This document shows, in pieces, positions 25,263 to 59,750 of a stretch of DNA of 64,000 bases. Position 1 is the stretch's first letter. Each line of letters begins with the position of its first letter. Origin of the DNA: Opeltia flavorubescens (taxonomy: Eukaryota > Ascomycota > Lecanoromycetes > Teloschistales > Teloschistaceae); the NCBI GenBank assembly GCA_000442125.1, contig KE546965.1:744001-808000 (forward strand), given 5' to 3'. Position numbers and translations under genes: made by a program. Under the pieces are notes generated by a model, which ran no database searches, was not told where the DNA came from, and saw only the letters and a program-made list of their open reading frames with translations.

Positions 25263-28200
25263 CTACTCTCCGACATCCATTGCATCCGGAGCGTCATTAC
25301 TACCGGTAACAGTGACGTGATGGTTAGATTGCTCATAACTTTCATCAATCTTTTGAAGATCCTCCTCCTGAATGTTTTTTCTTCCATGATGATCCAGAAC
25401 CTTCAGCACCTCTTCCTGTCCGGAACTTCGCGCCATTCTTTCTGCCGACATTACTGCCGACAATTTGATTTCTCGAGCGGCTCCACGAGAAAGAAGACTA
25501 GCGACTGCCGCCGTGTGACCCCTGGCACAGGCAACCATGAGTGCCGAGCCAAAAACCTTTCCCGGGTGGGCAAGATCGATCTTAGCGCCGTGAGAGAGGA
25601 GCAGATCAATCATGGGGACAGAATCGAGGTTTGCGGCGACGTGCAGAGGTGTTCCGTACTTCCAGCTGATAGCGTCCACGCTTTCACTTGGCGAGGCTAG
25701 ACGTCCTAGAAGCTGTCCGGCAAGCTTTATGTCGTCTTGTTGACATGCTAGATGCAGTGGAATCGTTCCATACTTATCAGGCCGAGTGCAATTGACTCCC
25801 CTGTCGAGAAGAGCAGAGATCATGATTTTATCCCTCGTTTCAATCGCGATGTGCAATGCGCCGCTGCCATCGTAAAGTATTGCGTGAATATCCGCCCCGT
25901 TATCCAGAAGGGCTTCTAGTGAGCTCAAATGTCCTTGATGAATCGTAGCGAGAAGCGGTGTCCATCCCCCAAGGCTTCGGTATTCGGGTTCAGCACCAAA
26001 TTGCAGGAGAAGCAGCAGATTCACGACGTACCCACCATGGGCGGCGACGCATAATGGAGTGGTGTGTTTGGACGAGACTGCATTGGGGTTCGCTCCATGC
26101 TTCAATAGCAACTCCAAAGCATCGTCCGTACGCTGAGAAGCGTAGTGAATGGCATACCAACTCTCGGTGTTGGCGCGATCTACGTCTATCTCTGGATGTA
26201 GCGTGAGAAGCTCCCAAGCTTCATGCCATTTACCACACGAGAATGCATTGATAAACGGTTTCTGGAAGTCTTCCCCGGTGGAAGTGGAAGATGGAGACCC
26301 CGACTTGTTGTCGGTAAGCCTCTCGTATTGCAACAACTGCCATTCTGCTAATTCCATTGCTAACTTTTCGTATCCGCCTAGATCGATGACATGTTGCACG
26401 ATATCCTCGAGTTCATTATCGATATCTAGAAGTTGCTTTACCGAACATAGGTCGATCGCATCCTCCAGGTTGATGCGTGAGCTTGTGTTCCAGTCTGCGC
26501 CTGCATCGAGTAGTAATTGGGCCGTTTGAGTATCCTTACAGATGAATGAACATATCAGAGGAGTGACAATAAACGGTGACCCAATCATATGATAAGTATT
26601 GAAATCATTACCTTCTTTCATGGGAAATTGCCGATTCACATCTCCGCCATATTCGACGAGTCTTCTGACCATTTTGAAGCCATGTCGTCGATCTTGAGTC
26701 ATGCTTTGCTTGTAAGACAGATTTAGGATGAGACTCGAATGGTCAAAATCAATGAGTTCCATAGTTGCAGCACAAATGGCTAAGTGTAGAGGTGTGAAAC
26801 GAGAATATCCCAAGGTCCCAGCAGCGTCCGGGTCCGCACCGGCAGAGAGCAACCGCTCCGTTTGATTGACCAGCAACGATGCACATGTCAAATGGAGTGG
26901 GGAAGCCAGTAGATGGAATGAGCGTTCCCAATCATCTTGGCTATCTTGGCGATCAAGAAGTCTATGACATGACTCCCACAGCTTAAATGTAGAAGTAGGA
27001 GGCATCGAGAGAAAACTTTGGATGAGCTGGTCGTTCTCCGCGTCGGGGTCATTGAAGCTGTATAGGTGATAAGGAAGAGCGAGCGCTGCATACTGATAGA
27101 AGGGATTTCTTGATACGAAATCATTAGTCTCCTCCCAAGACATGACTTTAATGCACTCGAAGTGACGATGCGATATGTAAGTAAGGCAGACACGGGCGAT
27201 GTACTCCCAGCGCTCCGCTTCCCCAGCATCGACGAGGAACTTTTGAGCGATAGGGCTAGAAATGCTCTCTGGTTCCTTAGAGAGAAATTCTTTGATCGTA
27301 AAATGAGAGAGATGCACGGTATCATCAGCTTGATCCCAACGAACTAAGCATCCCATCCAACGAAGAACCTGCTCTTTGCTTGGGATCGCGTCAATAGTAG
27401 GCCAATCGATGTCATTTTCAACACATATTGCCACACATAGCGCATCGAGTCGAAGCCGTCTGAGGGCTCTAATGCTCTTTTCTGAGAAGTAAACGAAGTC
27501 AATGTCCGTAGCGGAGTTCAACCATTCAAGCCATCTAAGAACACGCTGAATATATTTGATCGTTTGCGGTGCATACGTGCTATGAATAGTCTCAAAAATG
27601 CGGATGTAGGCCTGTGGAAGATCTGGTGGAAGCTGTTTCAAGGCTCTTCGCTTTTCCTTGTCGTTGGGCAGTCGCATCAAGTAATCAATTTGAGCACGTA
27701 CCCACATGAACCTAACGTCACTGTCAGCCAGCTAGCATGGGGCCTCTGTAAGCTTCGTAAAGCCAAAGACCTCTAGATCGAAAGATGACTACCGTACATT
27801 CCGTTGGCCTCAATGATCAAGGTTTCAACTACCTCAATTCTAAGATCTGGACTTTGAATGTCTAGCTTTTCGAGCCAGGCGTTAGCGAATAAGCGGAGAT
27901 CTGCCGATTCTGCCGCGATTGACAAAGGGACAAATCCGGCTCGAGTGAGATGGGACCTGATATCTTGCTCATCCCGGCTGAAGATTATTATTCGAACCGA
28001 GTTTTTATTATTATTGTGGAACCCAGCAAGTATTTCGATCAAGTGACTTCGATTTCGATCAAGGCAAGAACCAGACTCATCAAGCCCGTCTACCATAATG
28101 TATGTTTCATCAAATATTTCAAACATGTCGCCCAGTGTCTCACCTAGCTCGTGCTCATCCCAAGTCGCTGCCTCTTGAGCATTAGACTGCGCGTGCCTGC

Positions 28201-29319
28201 GCATAAGGCCAGCAAGAGCCGCGTGATTCTGACGTGCAAGCTGGGACACTATCGAACCCAAGACGTTCACTGGGTTGTGGCTGTTTCTATCGTCATGGCG
28301 GATGTAAAAATATGCCGTTCCAACGGAAGTGCTACGCTGATGAGTAAAAATCTCATCCACGACGAGTGTACTCAGCGTCGTCTTGCCGGCACCAGGAATA
28401 CCATAGATCCATAGAGCGCTGTTGGGATCCTCAAGCCAATTTGACAGCTCGGGAAGATCGAACAGCCACATGCCGGTACCCGGATGTCGTTCACGTTTGA
28501 AATTTCGATGCTTGTCGGCCGCGTTTACCGCGGACAACTCGTATAAAACCTTTTCTAGATTTGTTATCACTTTCAGAATTCATGATATGAGAAGAAGAAT
28601 AAACTAGTTGTGCTTGAGGCTAGGGTCATATCCACCAACTAACCTTCTTGCTGATTGAGCTGCAATTCCAGTATTTTTTCTTGCCGATCGCGAATTTTCG
28701 CTAAATTTTGTTTGCTAGTCTCTGCGTTCATGAGTACCTTGTGGATACTCGTCAACCCGATCTCCGAGAGTGCGATTGTGCAAGTGGACTTGTGTCGCTC
28801 TAACGTTTGAGTAAGTTGTAGAGTCTTCGACTTCGACAATGGCCAAACTAAGTCCTTTGGCTGAAGATGCTGAAGTGCGGAGAGACTGAAACGATGTTTT
28901 GTATGTGAGTTTACCGATGACGTGTTCGAATGCTCGAATTTCTGGAGAATGCACTGGATTTCCCGAAGGGTCCTTTCACATTCGTAGATGAAGCTGGGAG
29001 TCTCAAGTGTCTCCTCGGAAGGCTCCGTTTCCTCGTTGCCATCGGAAGTCACACCCATGTCTATGTCGCCAGTTTCGTTGTGTCCCACGTCATTACTTGG
29101 ATCAGATATTGCACCGTATGGCAATTTTTGTTTATCTTGAAGCAGTACTTTCAGTCTATACAACATACCGCAGAGGACGTTGACTTCTGCCATTAATTTG
29201 CGAACATCATCCCGGCAATGCTTGACAGTCCTGAGGTATCCATAGCCCTTTGTCACCACAGTCTCAGCAAGCGATGCGATGGCAATAATAGACGCAACAA
29301 ATTGAACAGGCTCCGTCAT
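25263..29319 (-). CDS. NACHT-ankyrin NLR-like protein
   Basis: Exons complement(25263..27711, 27798..28569, 28644..29319), 3897 nt, 1298 aa. Residues 1-225 are a fungal STAND N-terminal helical domain (MTEPVQFVASIIAIASLAET). The NACHT follows: P-loop WIYGIPGAGKTTL near residue 283, Walker B YIMVDGLDESG near 385, then EANGMFMWVRAQIDYL and the helical region with HLSHFTIKEFLS. The C-terminal half holds ankyrin units such as PLHLAICAA, PLCVAAHGGYVVNLLLLLQF, PLHLACQQDDIKLAGQLLGR and PLHVAANLDSVPMIDLLLSH. It is a tripartite receptor: the repeats sense, NACHT switches by nucleotide exchange and oligomerises, the N-domain signals. Roles known for relatives are vegetative incompatibility and defence; the ligand is unknown. 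The second intron uses donor GTACGG, chosen because it restores NGMFMWV. Confidence 0.92.
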
Positions 29320-31240
29320 TGTAGAGAAGTAGCGTATCTCTGCTGAAGCTCTTGTGCGTAAGGACGATGGTCAATACCTTCATCATCGTTGTCCAACAGA
29401 CGAGTTCAATATACATTACTGCTTGGAATTTGAATCCACAGAGGGTAGTGCGAAGTGGGGTAATCAATCATAGCCTCGTTCAAAGCCTCATACCAGCCTT
29501 GTTGAAAAGCAGGTCAACCGGGATTGCAGCCCTAGCGGTGCGATGTACATGAAAATGCGCCCGGTGACAACACATACATACCCTTGGAACCATTGCATGA
29601 ATCAGCCACAAGATATTGCTCGGAACAATATCTCCTCCCAAGCGCTGGAACAGCGCATGTTGATGCTGCAGTATAGATAAGACGTGTCACTTGCCTCGAG
29701 GCAGAGACCATCAAGCTCATACGAATAGTAGAGGTACCTTGGTGTTGGTGCGATGAAACGGTTGCTTGAAACTTCGTCAGATTAGACCATTCCAACACTC
29801 GGGTATAAGCTGATTGCATGCATGACGCAACAGCTAGCTCCGTCTCTCACGCACGGAAAATTGCTGAAGTGCGCAAGCTTATGACTCGCAGCCTGACTGC
29901 ATGACCTCGAAACCCTCTCTAGAGGCAAGTGAGTCACGCCATGGGAAAATACAGTACTCAATCGGTTCTTGTCGAAGAGCACTAGAGTAGGAAATATACA
30001 AGTACTATTCGGCAAGGACAAGCCGCTGCGCTCTTGTAAGGAATGACAACGCAGTAGAGCGGCAAGAATTGGGAGCTTCGTCGATCTCTTTAAACGTCGA
30101 ATAGGCCATATGAAGCTGATGATGACTACTCCCTAGACCGTATACCGCTTGGGTAGACTTACATAACGTCCTCAGGAATTCGCCATTATTCGGACCAAAG
30201 CCAAATGTTAGATAGCAGCTGTACATGTTGAGTGGTAGTATACACAGCCTTTTGATACCGAAAGCTGCGAATTTGTGAGCACGGGCTGACTCAGCAGTGT
30301 AGAGTCCGCAAGTCCGACGACCAGGATTTTGCAGCCATTCCACAATTCATTCACCCTCAATCTCATTTTTAATCTGATCCCACAAATCTCGATGGAATTA
30401 TGCACCCTTCCGTATTGCCACAAGCTGATTTCCTATATCGCCATCTAATTTCGGTTGGTCAATGGCCTATGACTGGCTGGAGCACGCCAATAAGAGCCTC
30501 CTCTCGAGCGTGTTTTTCCTTGCGATTTCCAGTGGAGGAATTCAAAATATCATTTTACTTAGTTTCTAACATTTCTTCATCCTATGTCTCTTTGCTTGAC
30601 GTGATTTTGGGTGGGCTTGTCTGGAAAATCAGACATGAGGCTGCAAGGCAGGAACATTTCTAATGGATCTTGTGCGAGCTGTCTATCGGTTCGTTGCTTG
30701 CGGCGCAATAGCTCTATCAGCTTTTCGCTTCCGAAGTCTTTGTTTCGAAATGCATGCCCCGTAGGTAACGAGCAACAGATGGTCCAGATGGTCCTTCGCC
30801 ACACGAAATTCGGAACTCGAGTCTCAATATTGAATAAGTTGAACACTGGAAGGCTCATCACGGTCGCAGATCCTATGGTGTGTATTATTGACAGCTCGGT
30901 CTCTGGATCCACTGCTCGGAGGATCTCGGTGCTGATGGCACACAAAACACCTGTATCCCTTCCTGTGTGGCGGGCGAAACATCGATACGTTTGCCTTTTG
31001 TTGCTTACCATAATGATGGATCATCATTAAATTGCTATTTTATTCAAGAGGCTACATATCGCTCGCTTTTGATCTATATACGTGAGTATAGGATCTCAAG
31101 GTGCCTTTCTTCACACTGAGCTTTCCATGTAAAAGTATGGATACGAGATTTTGACATCGATGTCGGCCGCTCTGCTTTATTTTTCCTTCCACCTGTAGCT
31201 GCCAGCCCTTGGTTTCGGTCCTTTTTCCTCGTCCTCTGCA
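29320..31240. other. intergenic, 1.9 kb, no gene supported
   Basis: Divergent region between the NLR-like gene (-) and the large secreted protein (+). Several open frames of 60-145 codons occur on both strands (e.g. 30577..31011) but none shows a motif or a consistent splice structure. Confidence 0.5.
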
Positions 31241-42169: not shown

Positions 42170-43854
42170 TCAAGAGCATACCTCGTGATAATCGTAGCAA
42201 TCTGGTGGGAACTGACAAAATGATTTCGGAGTCTTCACTGTATGACATTTGGGTTGGTGCTTGGTCACATCCACTGTACCATATTCCGGTTCCGACTGTT
42301 CAAGAGCGTTTCGTCTGTTTAACAGCGGAGCATATGTATTGTTGTTGTCGCATGCATTAGGTGGAAATTGGTAACATTTGTCAATGAGGGTTCGATCCCA
42401 NATATATTGACCTTTTTGTAGTTCGTTGAAGCATTTCGCTGCGTGAGTATGGCAACCTTGGTAGTAATACGGGAGATAGTATACGGAGCATGTTCCCCAG
42501 CCTGATATGAACCCTTTCGGTCAGATGTAGCTGTTCGGTGGTACGTCAGAGATGAGAGTAAGCTCACCTTGTACGCGTTCTTTGTGCAGATTTGGATCCT
42601 GCTGATTTAGATGGCTGCAGGGACGCTTCTTTTTGGCTACTCGAGTGCTGAGGTGTGTGGTATTTTGTGGATATTTCTTCGAGTCCGTAGGCTCAATTTC
42701 GTGTCCTCGCTTCTTCAGACACTGGCTCTCGGGGATGTTGAAACACTTCCTGATGAGAGATGGCCTCCATATGGCAGGGCCTTTTTGGACTTCTTTACTG
42801 CATGTCCTATAATTATCGTCGTAGTACATAGTGGCCCAGACACTGCAAAGTCCTTTGCCTGGTATGATAGGTGGGTAAGAGCTAAGAACACATTTGGTAT
42901 TGAGAGCTAGGGATGTGGAAGGACTCACCGGGTATGTTGAACTGTATGGGGTATTCCTTCCGTTTAGAGTAGCTTTTCCCTTCTGTATTGCTTCGAGCGA
43001 TGAGAGGTGTGAAATGTGTAGTAGTTCGTTGAAGGTTCTCCAAGTCCATAGATTCAATATCGTCTCGTTTCTGTAGACATGGGCTACTGGCTACGTCGAA
43101 ACACTTGCTGATGAAAATCTTGTTCCATTTGATGGGGCCTTTTGCGATTTCTTTGTTGCATTTGTTAGTGTGCTTTTCGTTGTCTTCGTAGTACGAAGAT
43201 GACCAGATATAGCNCCAGCCGATATCTGGTTCGTATGACAAATGAATGAGAATTAGGAACACTCCTGATGTTGGGAACTTAGGATATAGATACACATACC
43301 GTGTACGTAAGTCAACTGTTCGTAACTCTCCCGCTTGACAAAGTTCCCGCTGTCTACATGGTCACGACCGGATTGAGGATTGAGATACTCTTTTTCAGCT
43401 ACGACATTGCCACACTGCAGGAAACCCTCTGAAGTGTGGACGCATGTGGTGGCCAGATCTCCATCCATATTTGGTGTCATATCGTTGGTCGTCGAGTCGA
43501 TGTCTGTGACAATGAGTGAGGGCGATGAAGAAGGCAAGTTAGTGGGAGTAGCGTCCATAGTGGCTAGGTCGCGTGGGAGCTTGATATTACCAGACGGAGA
43601 AGGATCCGCCTGACAATGAACCTCCCTGTCTGAAGAGTGCCAACAATTCACACTCATACTATCTATAAGTTTGGCCTTCTCGTGAGACACGGGCTCGAAG
43701 CCGGAAGATTGATAGTTTTCATTCGCTACGAGGACAGTCAGTACGAAATATTGTTTTCATAGGATGTAGAATCACCGTTGGCCGGGGCACCATCTACGCC
43801 ATAGATGACAACAACAATGGCACAGACGACGGCCGGACCACTTATGAGCCTCAT
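42170..43854 (-). CDS. secreted protein with three tandem exon-encoded cysteine-rich modules
   Basis: Five exons, complement(42170..42501, 42568..42858, 42929..43225, 43300..43725, 43776..43854), 1425 nt, 474 aa. The signal peptide is MRLISGPAVVCAIVVVVIYG before VDGAPAN. Exon 2 is a Ser/Thr/Asp-rich region with four Cys ending in a dibasic site (NFVKRES). Exons 3, 4 and 5 each encode one copy of a module: aromatic/Cys start (GLCSVWATMYY in copy 2, GTCSVYYLPYY in copy 3), C-x3-4-(Q/A)KG-x3-W (CSKEVQKGPAIW, CNKEIAKGPIKW, CFNELQKGQYIW), KCF/KCY, then a last Cys followed by LQKR, LKKR or NRR. All four introns are phase 1, so modules can be added or lost without frameshift. No known family recognised. 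Confidence 0.85.
42402..42402. other. ambiguous base (N)
   Basis: Falls in the third position of an Ile/Met codon (KGQYI-W) of the third module. The W right after it is conserved in all modules. Confidence 1.
43214..43214. other. ambiguous base (N)
   Basis: First position of codon NGC in the first module. Alignment with the other two modules places a Cys here, so T on the coding strand (TGC) is the likely base. Confidence 1.
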
Positions 43855-45125
43855 ACTGAAGGTCAATGGGCGACTAAATTTCATTCGATGCCTTTACCCT
43901 CATACCAAAAGGAATGTAACAGATTTGTATATGGTCGAGGGCCCCCGTCTCTGTCATTGAAAAGATGAGATCAAGGAAGATACCAGAAATTTAGGACTCG
44001 ATGCCGACTACGAGAGGAATGTTCCAGTATTGAATGAAGCTTTAAATATATTCTTGATTTTAGGCTTTTTGTTACATACTCGAAATCTGCTGTTGCCTTC
44101 TGCAGATGAATTCAGTATGTACGAAATTCATCTTTTTGAAATTATGCCAACCATTTTCCAAGCATATAAACATAAATTCTTCATAATCCACTGAAGAAGG
44201 TCGAGATTAATATCCCTGCGATAGTTACATTCGAGCGCGTCTTTCCTGCATGTCCACGTAGGAACCAGCTCACAAAGAAAGACCAAAAGGAGTAACCATT
44301 CTAATATCTGGGACGTCCGTTCCTGGCCATACACGTGTTCGTTTCAACCACGAATAAATGAAAGCTAATAGTAAGACAAGCGATGAAAAATCTTTTTTGA
44401 GCATCAGGCTTAGTACTTTGAATTAGACTTATGCTTAGGCTAGCATCAAACCTTGGGAGATAGCATCTGTTAATGAGTTGATAAGTCATATTCAGCTCTG
44501 CAAGTTTGTAGGTCTAGCATCGTGTCAAGAAGCATTTCAAGGATAATTGAATCTGCTAGTACTAGTGCTCTTCAGAGCAGATCGATTGGAAAGATATCTA
44601 CACCTTCTTCAGTTGTTGCTCCTATAGACTCACTGGTATCCTCCCTCATCTCATTGCTCTCAACGACGTGCCGAAGAGTCTCTCTTCTCTACGCTTGCAT
44701 CATTCATCTCATACTACTACCATGAACTAATTCTTGACTAAGTTTTTGTGGAAGAACGTGCTATGGCTTCAACCAGCAACATCAAGCCTTTTTGGGTTAC
44801 AAGGCGATGTCACGGTCAAGGCGTTGTGTATCCATATTACAGGATTCGCTTTATCTTATGGACAATCGAGGTATCGAATGCTCTACTACGGAAGTATAGT
44901 CCGCGTCCGCATGTAATTTCACCGACTCATCATAACGTCATGATTCACTTCACTGGAGTTACCTTCATTTCCCACTCCCCACGTTTCAGATTCATTCTTT
45001 GGTTCTTCTCTGCCATAAAAGCCTTCACGGACACCCACAAACCACCTTCTCTCCACCATCACTCACAGTCACTCATACACTCATAACTCATACATTCAGA
45101 TCTACTTCGCGAAATCTCCTTCACA
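43855..45125. other. divergent intergenic region, no gene seen
   Basis: Shared upstream region of the cysteine-module gene (-) and the ferritin-like gene (+). Short open frames lack coding character. Confidence 0.6.
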
Positions 45126-46240
45126 ATGCGTTTCACCAATCCTCTTGTGATCTCTGCTCTCGTTGGTAGTGCACTGGCCGTCCCCACTCCATTCAAATTT
45201 CCACTTCCAGATGGATTTCCCACTCCCAGCGCAGAGCAGCTCGCTCTCATCCAAAAAGAAGCCGGAGGTACACTATCAAATGCATTCGCCCCTCTGGCCT
45301 TAAGAAGCGGCGCAATCACCGCTTTGAACCTCCTCGCAAACAATGAGATCTTCGAGGTTGCCTTCTTCACCGAGTTTTTGACCAACATCACCAACAATGT
45401 GCCTGGGTACGACCCAGCTTCCATCGCACCCTTAGACCGTGACCACATCATCAAATCCCTCTCAGCGATCGCGCATGTAAGTAACTCCATCTCCCAACCA
45501 AATCACCATGCTAATCTCTTCCTCAGCAAGAAGAGCTTCACTCCATCGGCGCCAACGCCATCCTCGCCGGAGCCGGACAAGCTCCAATCGCACCTTGCCA
45601 ATACGACTTCCCCGTCAGCACCTTCAAGGAGGCCATACTCCTCGCCGAAACCTTCACCGACCTCGCCCTCAGCACAATTCCCGTCATCCAGTCTCTCTTC
45701 GCCAACGAGGGTGGCGAGGAAGTTCGCAACATTCCCGTCATCGGCTCCATCCTTGGCCAAGAAGGCGAACAAGACGGTTTCTTCCGCTACGTCCAGGGAA
45801 AGACACCATCAGCTGCTCCTTTCCTTACCTTGGGGACAATAGACTTCGCGTTCACCGCCCTCCATGCATTCATTGTGCCGGATTCATGCCCGAAACCACT
45901 TTCCACCATCGCTCTCAAGAATTTTGGACCGTTGAATGTCGTTACTAAGCCTCTTGTGAAGAACATGACATTGGTGTACACTGTCGATGGACCTGTGGAC
46001 TGCAAGGAGCAGTCTATCGTTTACCTTTCGGGACTCAATTCGCCGGTCACGGTGCCGATTGCCTGCCCTGTTCACGCGAGAGGAGGGCAGACTTGGTTCA
46101 AGGCTAGCTTTCCATTCGAGGCAGGGTTTGCGTATGGATTGACGATTGCAGCGGTGGTCAATGGGACGGGCGAGTTGGCGAGTGCGGCTGCTGTTGATGA
46201 TGCGACGGTCTATGCGCCGGGGATTATTTTGGTGGATTAG
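45126..46240 (+). CDS. secreted ferritin-like protein (LsdA/Rds1-like)
   Basis: Exons 45126..45476 and 45527..46240, 1065 nt, 354 aa. Signal peptide MRFTNPLVISALVGSALA, then VPTPFKFPLPDGFP. The core has EVAFFTEFLTNITNNVPGYD, HSIGANAILAGAGQAPIAPC, FPVSTFKEAILLAETFTDLA and IGSILGQEGEQDGFFRYVQG, the four-helix ferritin-like arrangement with Glu/His positions typical of fungal late-sexual-development and Rds1 stress proteins. A C-terminal beta-rich domain carries PVDCKEQSIVYLSGLNSPV. It is probably extracellular or wall-associated, expressed in development or stress. Metal binding is inferred from the fold only. Confidence 0.85.
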
Positions 46241-57716: not shown

Positions 57717-59750
57717 ATGTCAGGTGATGCTCAAGTATGCAATGAATGCGAGCAACTGTTCTTAGAGCCAGAGCACCTCCAGGTTCTATGCTCGGACTTC
57801 TCACTTCACAACGTAGAAAGGCACACGCTATCCTACCGACGTAAAACCAGGGCCCTAAAGTCGAACTCAATCCGAGGATGTGGGCTGTGTAGGATACTAG
57901 TCAACTATTTCAAGCTAGATACAGACTTTTGGAAAGGAGTCAACCTAGGATTATCAGACAAGAGTCCTGAAGAAGTAGTCTTTGCTTTATACCTGGTCGA
58001 TATTGCCCCGCTCGTTCTATCCGTAAATTTGGAAGGTGTAAAGGAAATTAGAGGAGACAAGGACTGGCTTGCATTTGAGCTCCTCACGACACCAGGTATA
58101 TCGAATGTAAATTTACATCTTCGCGTGGCTGAACTCTTTCAGATGATCCTGCGGCGCAGTATTTTCCTGGTCGGCTTGCGAACCATGATGTCGGCAGTAG
58201 CCAAAGCTTTAAGCTCGTGAGGCAGTGGATGACTGAATGCGATATCAACCATCCCAATTGCACCAAAGTCGAGGAACCGAGTCTCCCAACGCGTGTCCTG
58301 GATGTATTCTCGGCGACGAGTCCTACAGGTCTAAATCTGTTCGTGGCTGAAGGTCGAACAGGAGAGTACGCTTGCCTCAGCTATTGCTGGGGGTTCTACA
58401 AACCAGCAAATGCAGTTAACAGGTGCTAGTCTGCCGACTCTGCTTAGAAGCATTTCACCAACGCACTTACCACAGTCCATACAAGATGCAGTACTCACTG
58501 CCCGGAGGATAGGCATACGCTACCTTTGGGTTGATGCACTTTGCATCCTTCAAGACTCGGCAGAAGACAAAGGTCGAGAAATTGAAAGGATGGGTGAGAT
58601 TTATAGTAATGCAAACCTTACCATTGCGGCGGCTAATGCCGACGACTGTTCTGATGGTTTTCTTGCCAAACGTGATCGATGGTGGTCTGACGCCGACAGC
58701 CCCCCGATCCGTCTTCCTTTTCTCTGTCCGGACTGGAGCGAAGGGAATATTTCTTTGGTGAGATATGGTACTCCAGCTGGCCGAGAACCACTTTATAGCC
58801 GGTCTTGGCCATTCCAAGAGCATTTGCTCTCGCCTCGAGTACTCATGTATGGGTCAGAGCAGGTGCTGTGGGTTTGCCAGCAAGATGCACCAATTGGGAC
58901 AGGCGCGACCTTCAAAGACGGAGGGCCAGCGTACGATTCCTCAGTGACGGAGCAAAAATACATGAGGATGTTCCTTCACAAGCCTTCTGTAATATCACGT
59001 GGATTCGCAAGACGAAATCTTTGGATTGATCTAGTGGCTGAATACTCACCTCGAAAACAAAGCATACCGGATGACAAAATCCATGCTCTCCGTGGCATCG
59101 CTTCTCGGTACCAGCGTTATATGAAGGACGAGTATATCGCTGGCCTGTGGAAAAGCTGGCTCATACCCGGTTTGATGTGGAAAAGATCTCAAGAGATTCA
59201 GGGCCAACAGAAACGGCAATATCCTTCATGGTCGTGGTTATCCATCGATAGTGGGGTGGTCATGGAGAAAGCCGATAATGATATCTACAGCTTCGAGAAT
59301 CTTTGCAATGTCGAATATGTTGCCTACAGCGCCGACATTGATAACGCCTCTCGTAGTCCATTTGGCTTACTCCCAAACGCGGTCCTACATCTGCGTGGCC
59401 ACATTACGAGATTTGAGGACCCGGCGTGGAACAAGATGCGACACCTAACCACTGATCCAGAAGTAGATAATGTGAGATTTCTGCGACCACAACCGGCGCG
59501 CATAGTCTTGGACTTCACGACATTATCATTGTTGGACTTGATGGCTGAGAGACCGATTTGGTGTTTGCCTGTCATACGAACAAAGGTGGCGGATCAAAGG
59601 ACTGATAGGTATGTAGGCTGGGCTGTGCAGGGTCTGTTGCTTTCACATGACTCGCATTTCAATTTTTACAAGCGCATTGGATGGTTCATCAGTGATGTTG
59701 GCAATGGAGAGTTTTCGGGAGGGCGGCGGCAGGATATTTTCGTCCGATGA
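57717..59750 (+). CDS. HET-domain (heterokaryon incompatibility) protein
   Basis: Exon 57717..58096, a 46-nt intron, then coding to 59750. The N-terminus MSGDAQVCNECEQLFLEPEH and CGLCRILVNYF are the usual Cys-rich lead. After splicing come RLANHDVGSSQSFKLVRQWM, then YACLSYCWG (HET block A), YLWVDALCILQDS and REIERMGEIYSNANLTIAAA (blocks B and C), YSRSWPFQEHLLSPRVL, and SWSWLSIDSG. HET proteins trigger cell death when unlike strains fuse. The part before about 58390 and the part after it lie in different frames across a short G run. No intron of normal size fits there, so this copy may be inactive or the run may be miscounted. Confidence 0.8.

Follow-up and report, generated by a model that had tools for sequence, protein, structure and literature searches.

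The systems closest to the gene reported here have been described in fungi and in animals. According to PMC6339444 and PMC7329392, the fungal Kex2-processed repeat proteins (KEPs) are secreted-type precursors with identical or nearly identical motifs and are recognized by a minimum of three repeats set between Kex2 sites, with four or more fragments. Candidates for the Kex2 pro-domain-processed (K2PP) class of secreted proteins are recognized by KR or RR in the first half of the protein, after a disordered N-terminal region. In animals, progranulin appears in PMC4527844 as a chain of cysteine-rich modules that are released by proteolysis and the number of which has changed by exon duplication, with 12 cysteines and two exons per module in mammals.

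The gene analyzed here lies in a 64,000-nucleotide stretch of Opeltia flavorubescens DNA (contig KE546965.1; hereafter the window) and can be compared with each of these systems. Like the KEPs, its predicted product would be a secreted-type precursor with three repeated units set between KR or RR pairs, the six KR/RR sites of which would delimit seven fragments, a count made outside the published pipelines. Unlike the motifs of KEPs, these units are not near-identical, since their cores are 30, 40 and 42% identical and share four conserved cysteine positions. The predicted protein, the length of which follows from the exons, has approximately 474 residues and its first KR ends at about residue 158; the equivalent of the preceding pro-region in a relative (P0004, see below) was modeled with low pLDDT, which is not a measure of disorder. 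With progranulin it would share the chain of cysteine-rich modules, their proteolytic release and a module number changing by exon duplication, but the four conserved cysteines and single exon of each module, and the lack of a granulin match in Pfam, set it apart from progranulin proper and make the comparison one of analogy only. The reading we favor, with a probability of about 0.55, is that of a secreted precursor that would be cut by Kex2 into small disulfide-rich proteins, would have grown by exon duplication and would act outside the cell.

The gene occupies positions 43854-42170 of the reverse strand, and its five exons and four introns were established by reading the coding frame from the DNA and by homology. 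Exon 1 (43776..43854; 79 nt, 26 codons plus one base) provides the start codon and a hydrophobic, signal-peptide-like N-terminus, as judged by eye, which resembles in a by-eye comparison those of two database proteins introduced below (P0004 and P0002). Exon 2 (43300..43725; 426 nt) encodes a pro-region in which the C-x9-C motif occurs twice (Cys codons at 43645/43615 and 43444/43414), followed by a KR (43336-43331) on the N-terminal side of module 1. Exon 3 (42929..43225; 297 nt) comprises module 1, in which an N at 43214 leaves the first-Cys position as X, the LQKR at the module end (KR at 43070-43065), a linker and a second KR (42965-42960), and exon 4 (42568..42858; 291 nt) has the same arrangement, with a four-Cys module 2, LKKR (KR at 42712-42707), a linker, KR (42628-42623) and, past it, an extra Cys that would fall in the module 3 fragment. 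Exon 5 (42170..42501; 332 nt with the stop) encodes a five-Cys module 3, an RR (42316-42311) and a C-terminal tail with four cysteines, the codons of which start at 42247, 42217, 42199 and 42178; its N at 42401 was likewise kept as X in the translation. The four introns (43726..43775, 43226..43299, 42859..42928 and 42502..42567; 50, 74, 70 and 66 nt) are all GT-AG and all in phase 1, with an intron 1 (GTGATT..TAG) the donor of which departs from the usual consensus. None of the five exons has a stop in the coding frame, against zero to eight per exon in the other two frames. The DNA reading and the match to P0004 thus bear out the five-exon model of the first-pass annotation, with its phase-1 introns and the lengths of exons 2 to 4 as multiples of three.

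The homology of the modules in exons 3, 4 and 5, with cores of 49, 46 and 50 residues, was likewise confirmed. Local alignment scores of 152 (exons 3 and 4), 83 (exons 3 and 5) and 90 (exons 4 and 5) were not reached by any of 2000 shuffles for any pair, and in whole-genome searches exons 3 and 4 find each other (E ~1e-12), while exon 5 matches both reciprocally (E 1.3e-4 to 4.5e-3). Position 2 is a G in all three modules, which also share YY, one Cys, an E, KGxxxW, KC[FY] and the last Cys, so that the KGx3W and KC(F/Y) elements claimed beforehand occur in all three, with the first Cys of exon 3 reading as X. The dibasic site that had been placed after the final cysteine of every module stands there in exons 3 and 4, two residues on, and in exon 5 only 11 residues on (LLNRR). 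Beyond that first description, our reading adds the KR before each module, the two Cys pairs of exon 2 and the four-Cys tail.

A protein search with exon 2, its length set for a longer protein, returned a single match, the hypothetical protein LQ343_005588 (P0004) of Gyalolechia ehrenbergii, a species of the Teloschistaceae that we take to be a lichen fungus. The protein matches every larger exon of the window gene, with pairwise E-values, calculated with the database size set nominally at 1e6 letters, of 1e-16 (exon 2), 1e-11 (exon 3), 1e-10 (exon 4) and 4e-28 (exon 5 module with the tail), and as a query in the genome of the window it again matches all four. The listing of PMC9907504 agrees with G. 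ehrenbergii being a lichen fungus. Like the window gene, P0004 presents a signal-like N-terminus, two C-x9-C motifs, modules of the form C..KC/RC..E..KGPxxW..KC[FY]..C that are flanked by KR at either end, and a tail of the form KC..VKT.K.FCQFPPDCY....VC. Unlike it, P0004 has two modules instead of three, with which exons 3, 4 and 5 all align best in the second and less well in the first, as well as RR pairs inside module 1, a KR directly before the tail (TTKR, where the window gene has VTKH) and 12 extra residues between the modules that look like an unspliced intron. An exon may have been overlooked in its annotation, or part of an intron retained, and two is therefore its annotated number of modules. 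From KC to VC, 18 of 25 tail residues are identical in the two proteins, as counted by hand on the alignment, against 35-49% identity for the module cores, and the tail is the best conserved part of the protein. A search of the protein database with exon 4 alone, its candidates limited to proteins of similar length, gave no match, and neither a transcript nor a full-length database protein could be found for the window gene itself, the exon-2 protein search having covered lengths of ~474 residues.

Within the genome, searches with six exon or paralogue queries and two relatives recovered the window gene, one paralogue on contig 12 and, otherwise, one low-complexity match. The paralogue reads as three exons, the first signal-like, the second with TTCVHTSDGYIECG and the third with a single module, separated by two phase-1 introns. 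Its exon-2 motif matches that of the window gene with an E-value of 8.5e-6 in the genome search and of 3e-10 as a single pair, and its module aligns with that of the window gene in hhalign (E 4.6e-5, probability 68%). In whole-genome searches, module queries from either gene failed to recover the modules of the other; the genome-scale link between the two genes rests on exon 2, and more diverged paralogues could hence be missed. A database protein, P0002, found on two contigs of which the longest has 1122 nt, carries exactly the joins predicted from the paralogue DNA, and most simply derives from transcripts, since introns seem to be read through in its sister match P0003, which comes from a 38-kb contig and is 47% identical over exon 2. 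By eye, the protein letters of P0003 seem to hold translated introns where the contig 12 paralogue has introns. P0002 and P0003 resemble the window gene in the TTCVHT.DG...CG motif of exon 2 and in the order of cysteines, with a KR four residues upstream of the Cys in their C-terminal module. They differ from it in their single module (one clear and one doubtful in P0003), in nine extra residues before the Trp and in an acidic or Ser-Gly end instead of the tail.

No named family could be assigned to these proteins. Searches found no relative in Pfam (exons 2 to 5 and three relatives), in NCBIfam (exons 4 and 5 and three relatives) or in the PDB (module alignment and P0004); the known single-domain family that would have contradicted a repeat structure did not turn up in these libraries, and the single-module paralogue belongs to the same unnamed family. 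Structure models were poor (mean pLDDT 50, from five to seven aligned rows), with a mostly helical core for the exon 4 module (pLDDT 72-76 in residues 11-40) and averages of 82-89 for residues 291-310 (second module) and 341-365 (tail) of P0004, and fold comparison of the models found no match. In a literature collection without preprints and most subscription papers, none of the matches listed dealt with this family, and the locus tag LQ343_005588 was absent from the main texts searched.

The distribution of dibasic pairs makes Kex2 processing of the precursor likely. Across exons 2 to 5 of the window gene, P0002, P0003 and P0004, KR appears 17 times where shuffled sequences lead one to expect 4.5, although these are not independent events, since the proteins are related, and the excess within each sequence set is modest (P 0.0002-0.03). 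The reversed pair RK, in the same sequences, occurs 6 times against 4.5 expected. In the window gene, exons 2, 3 and 4 each carry a KR immediately ahead of the next module, at 10, 10 and 18 residues from the exon end, and in all five modules of the window gene and P0004 a KR or RR starts at most 12 residues past the last Cys; no dibasic site follows the C-terminal module of P0002 or that of P0003. All three module-end sites of the window gene have Leu at P4, where Kex2 is reported to prefer Leu or another aliphatic residue (PMC8528282). The genome contains one match to a Kex2-type P-domain (PF01483), over 57 of 86 positions and with one stop read through. Cuts at KR alone would give even cysteine numbers in every fragment of the three relatives, and also of the window gene when X is taken for a Cys, one of its fragments being odd otherwise, yet this evenness carries little weight, since random cuts achieve it with a probability of 0.20-0.60 per protein and the addition of RR cuts gives P0004 two odd-Cys fragments.

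The alternative that fares best is that the protein remains uncut, or loses only its exon-2 pro-region, and works as a multivalent extracellular binder, in which repeated modules would hold a wall polymer or a partner surface with higher avidity and the dibasic pairs of the linkers would be partly incidental. The two RR pairs inside the first module core of P0004 (residues 205 and 208) lend it some weight, since cutting at every dibasic would break that module, as do the divergence of the window modules, which is that of multidomain binding proteins, and the fungal secreted proteins documented to lose nothing but an N-terminal pro-domain (PMC8528282); the lack of a KR directly before the window tail also counts against processing. 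We nevertheless regard it as unlikely, given that the excess seen in all four sequence sets is one of KR and not of RK and that the sites of the window modules flank the cysteine cores at both ends. A signal-like N-terminus, repeats and KR sites would also suit a precursor of short Kex2-released peptides, be it an alpha-type pheromone or a ustiloxin-type RiPP with its UstYa enzymes, but cores of 46-50 residues with four conserved Cys positions are not short near-identical peptides, which makes such a precursor very improbable; none of the 19 UstYa (DUF3328) matches scored in the genome lies on contig 1, which speaks against the ustiloxin type. Those 19 stretches, located elsewhere in the genome, point to possible RiPP clusters. 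Least credible of all is an artefact of wrong joins or frame, or a decaying gene, for which the two Ns, the intron 1 donor and the empty transcript search might speak, but against which stand a single annotated protein of another species matching all four larger exons, a coding frame free of stops and the agreement of the joins read from the paralogue DNA with those of P0002.

The preferred reading of a processed precursor also comprises its growth by exon duplication, as already proposed in the first-pass annotation. Family members carry one, two or three modules, all six introns read (four in the window gene and two in the paralogue) are in phase 1 and the module exons are homologous and symmetric, which is what exon duplication predicts. 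From a single-module ancestor like the contig 12 paralogue, module copies would have arisen by duplication of a symmetric phase-1 exon that carries the module, the linker and the next KR. Identity between modules within the gene (30-42%) is about that between species (35-49%) and the module tree does not resolve, so that either the duplications are ancient or the gene is evolving rapidly. Judging from the sequences, intron positions in the two genes are similar, not identical: in the paralogue, 19 residues separate the second junction from the first Cys downstream of it and the KR comes after the junction, while in the window gene the junction lies three residues before the first-Cys position and the preceding exon holds the KR.

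A Pfam scan of 17 of the 33 window ORFs of at least 190 residues revealed no gene that would explain a modular precursor. The neighbors include an AAA ATPase and a secreted-looking gene (45087-46240, forward strand) with a ferritin-like domain match that falls narrowly short of the Pfam cut-off (E 6.1e-5); this gene probably has two exons, since it was read in two overlapping frames. Further off lie an ankyrin-repeat ORF (25263-29370, reverse strand; E 1.5e-50), in the vicinity of an ORF that matches PigL_N weakly and below the cut-off, and a heterokaryon incompatibility (HET) domain ORF (58335-59750, forward strand; E 2.8e-23), which together may mark an allorecognition-rich stretch. In the wider genome, 2 of 20 sampled 10-kb stretches (1000001-1010000 on both contig 3 and contig 10) have a GC content of 16-17%, against 46-51% in the other 18, as in a two-compartment genome, perhaps shaped by repeat-induced mutation.

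If the favored reading is correct, the signal peptide would be removed first and the Golgi protease Kex2 would then cut the KR/RR sites around each module, releasing three related but different module proteins of ~60-80 residues each, presumably stabilized by disulfide pairing. A four-Cys C-terminal peptide of ~46 residues, short linkers and the pro-region with its two Cys pairs would be set free as well. These products would act outside the cell, where the fungus, probably lichen-forming, meets its alga or other microbes. An action towards the algal partner is our tentative first choice; a role as antimicrobials against competitors comes second and is more doubtful, and the net charge of the module cores (+2, +3 and +1) is too weak to sustain an argument from charge. 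PMC9232553 calls the roles of small secreted proteins of lichen fungi unclear and most of them genus- or species-specific, and reports, in general and not for this gene, that most such specific proteins of G. flavorubescens are upregulated at early-resynthesis time points. It is a speculative and rather improbable extension that the gene is a fungal counterpart of progranulin, in which one lichen-fungus precursor would yield a set of different disulfide-stabilized signal or antimicrobial proteins and symmetric phase-1 exon duplication would let module number evolve in step with algal or microbial partners. None of the literature matches listed concerned module-by-module growth of fungal secreted proteins through exon duplication. 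The gene stands as a candidate case of such growth and, with its defined modules, candidate cut sites, single-module paralogue and a relative whose module number differs, offers products that can be tested.
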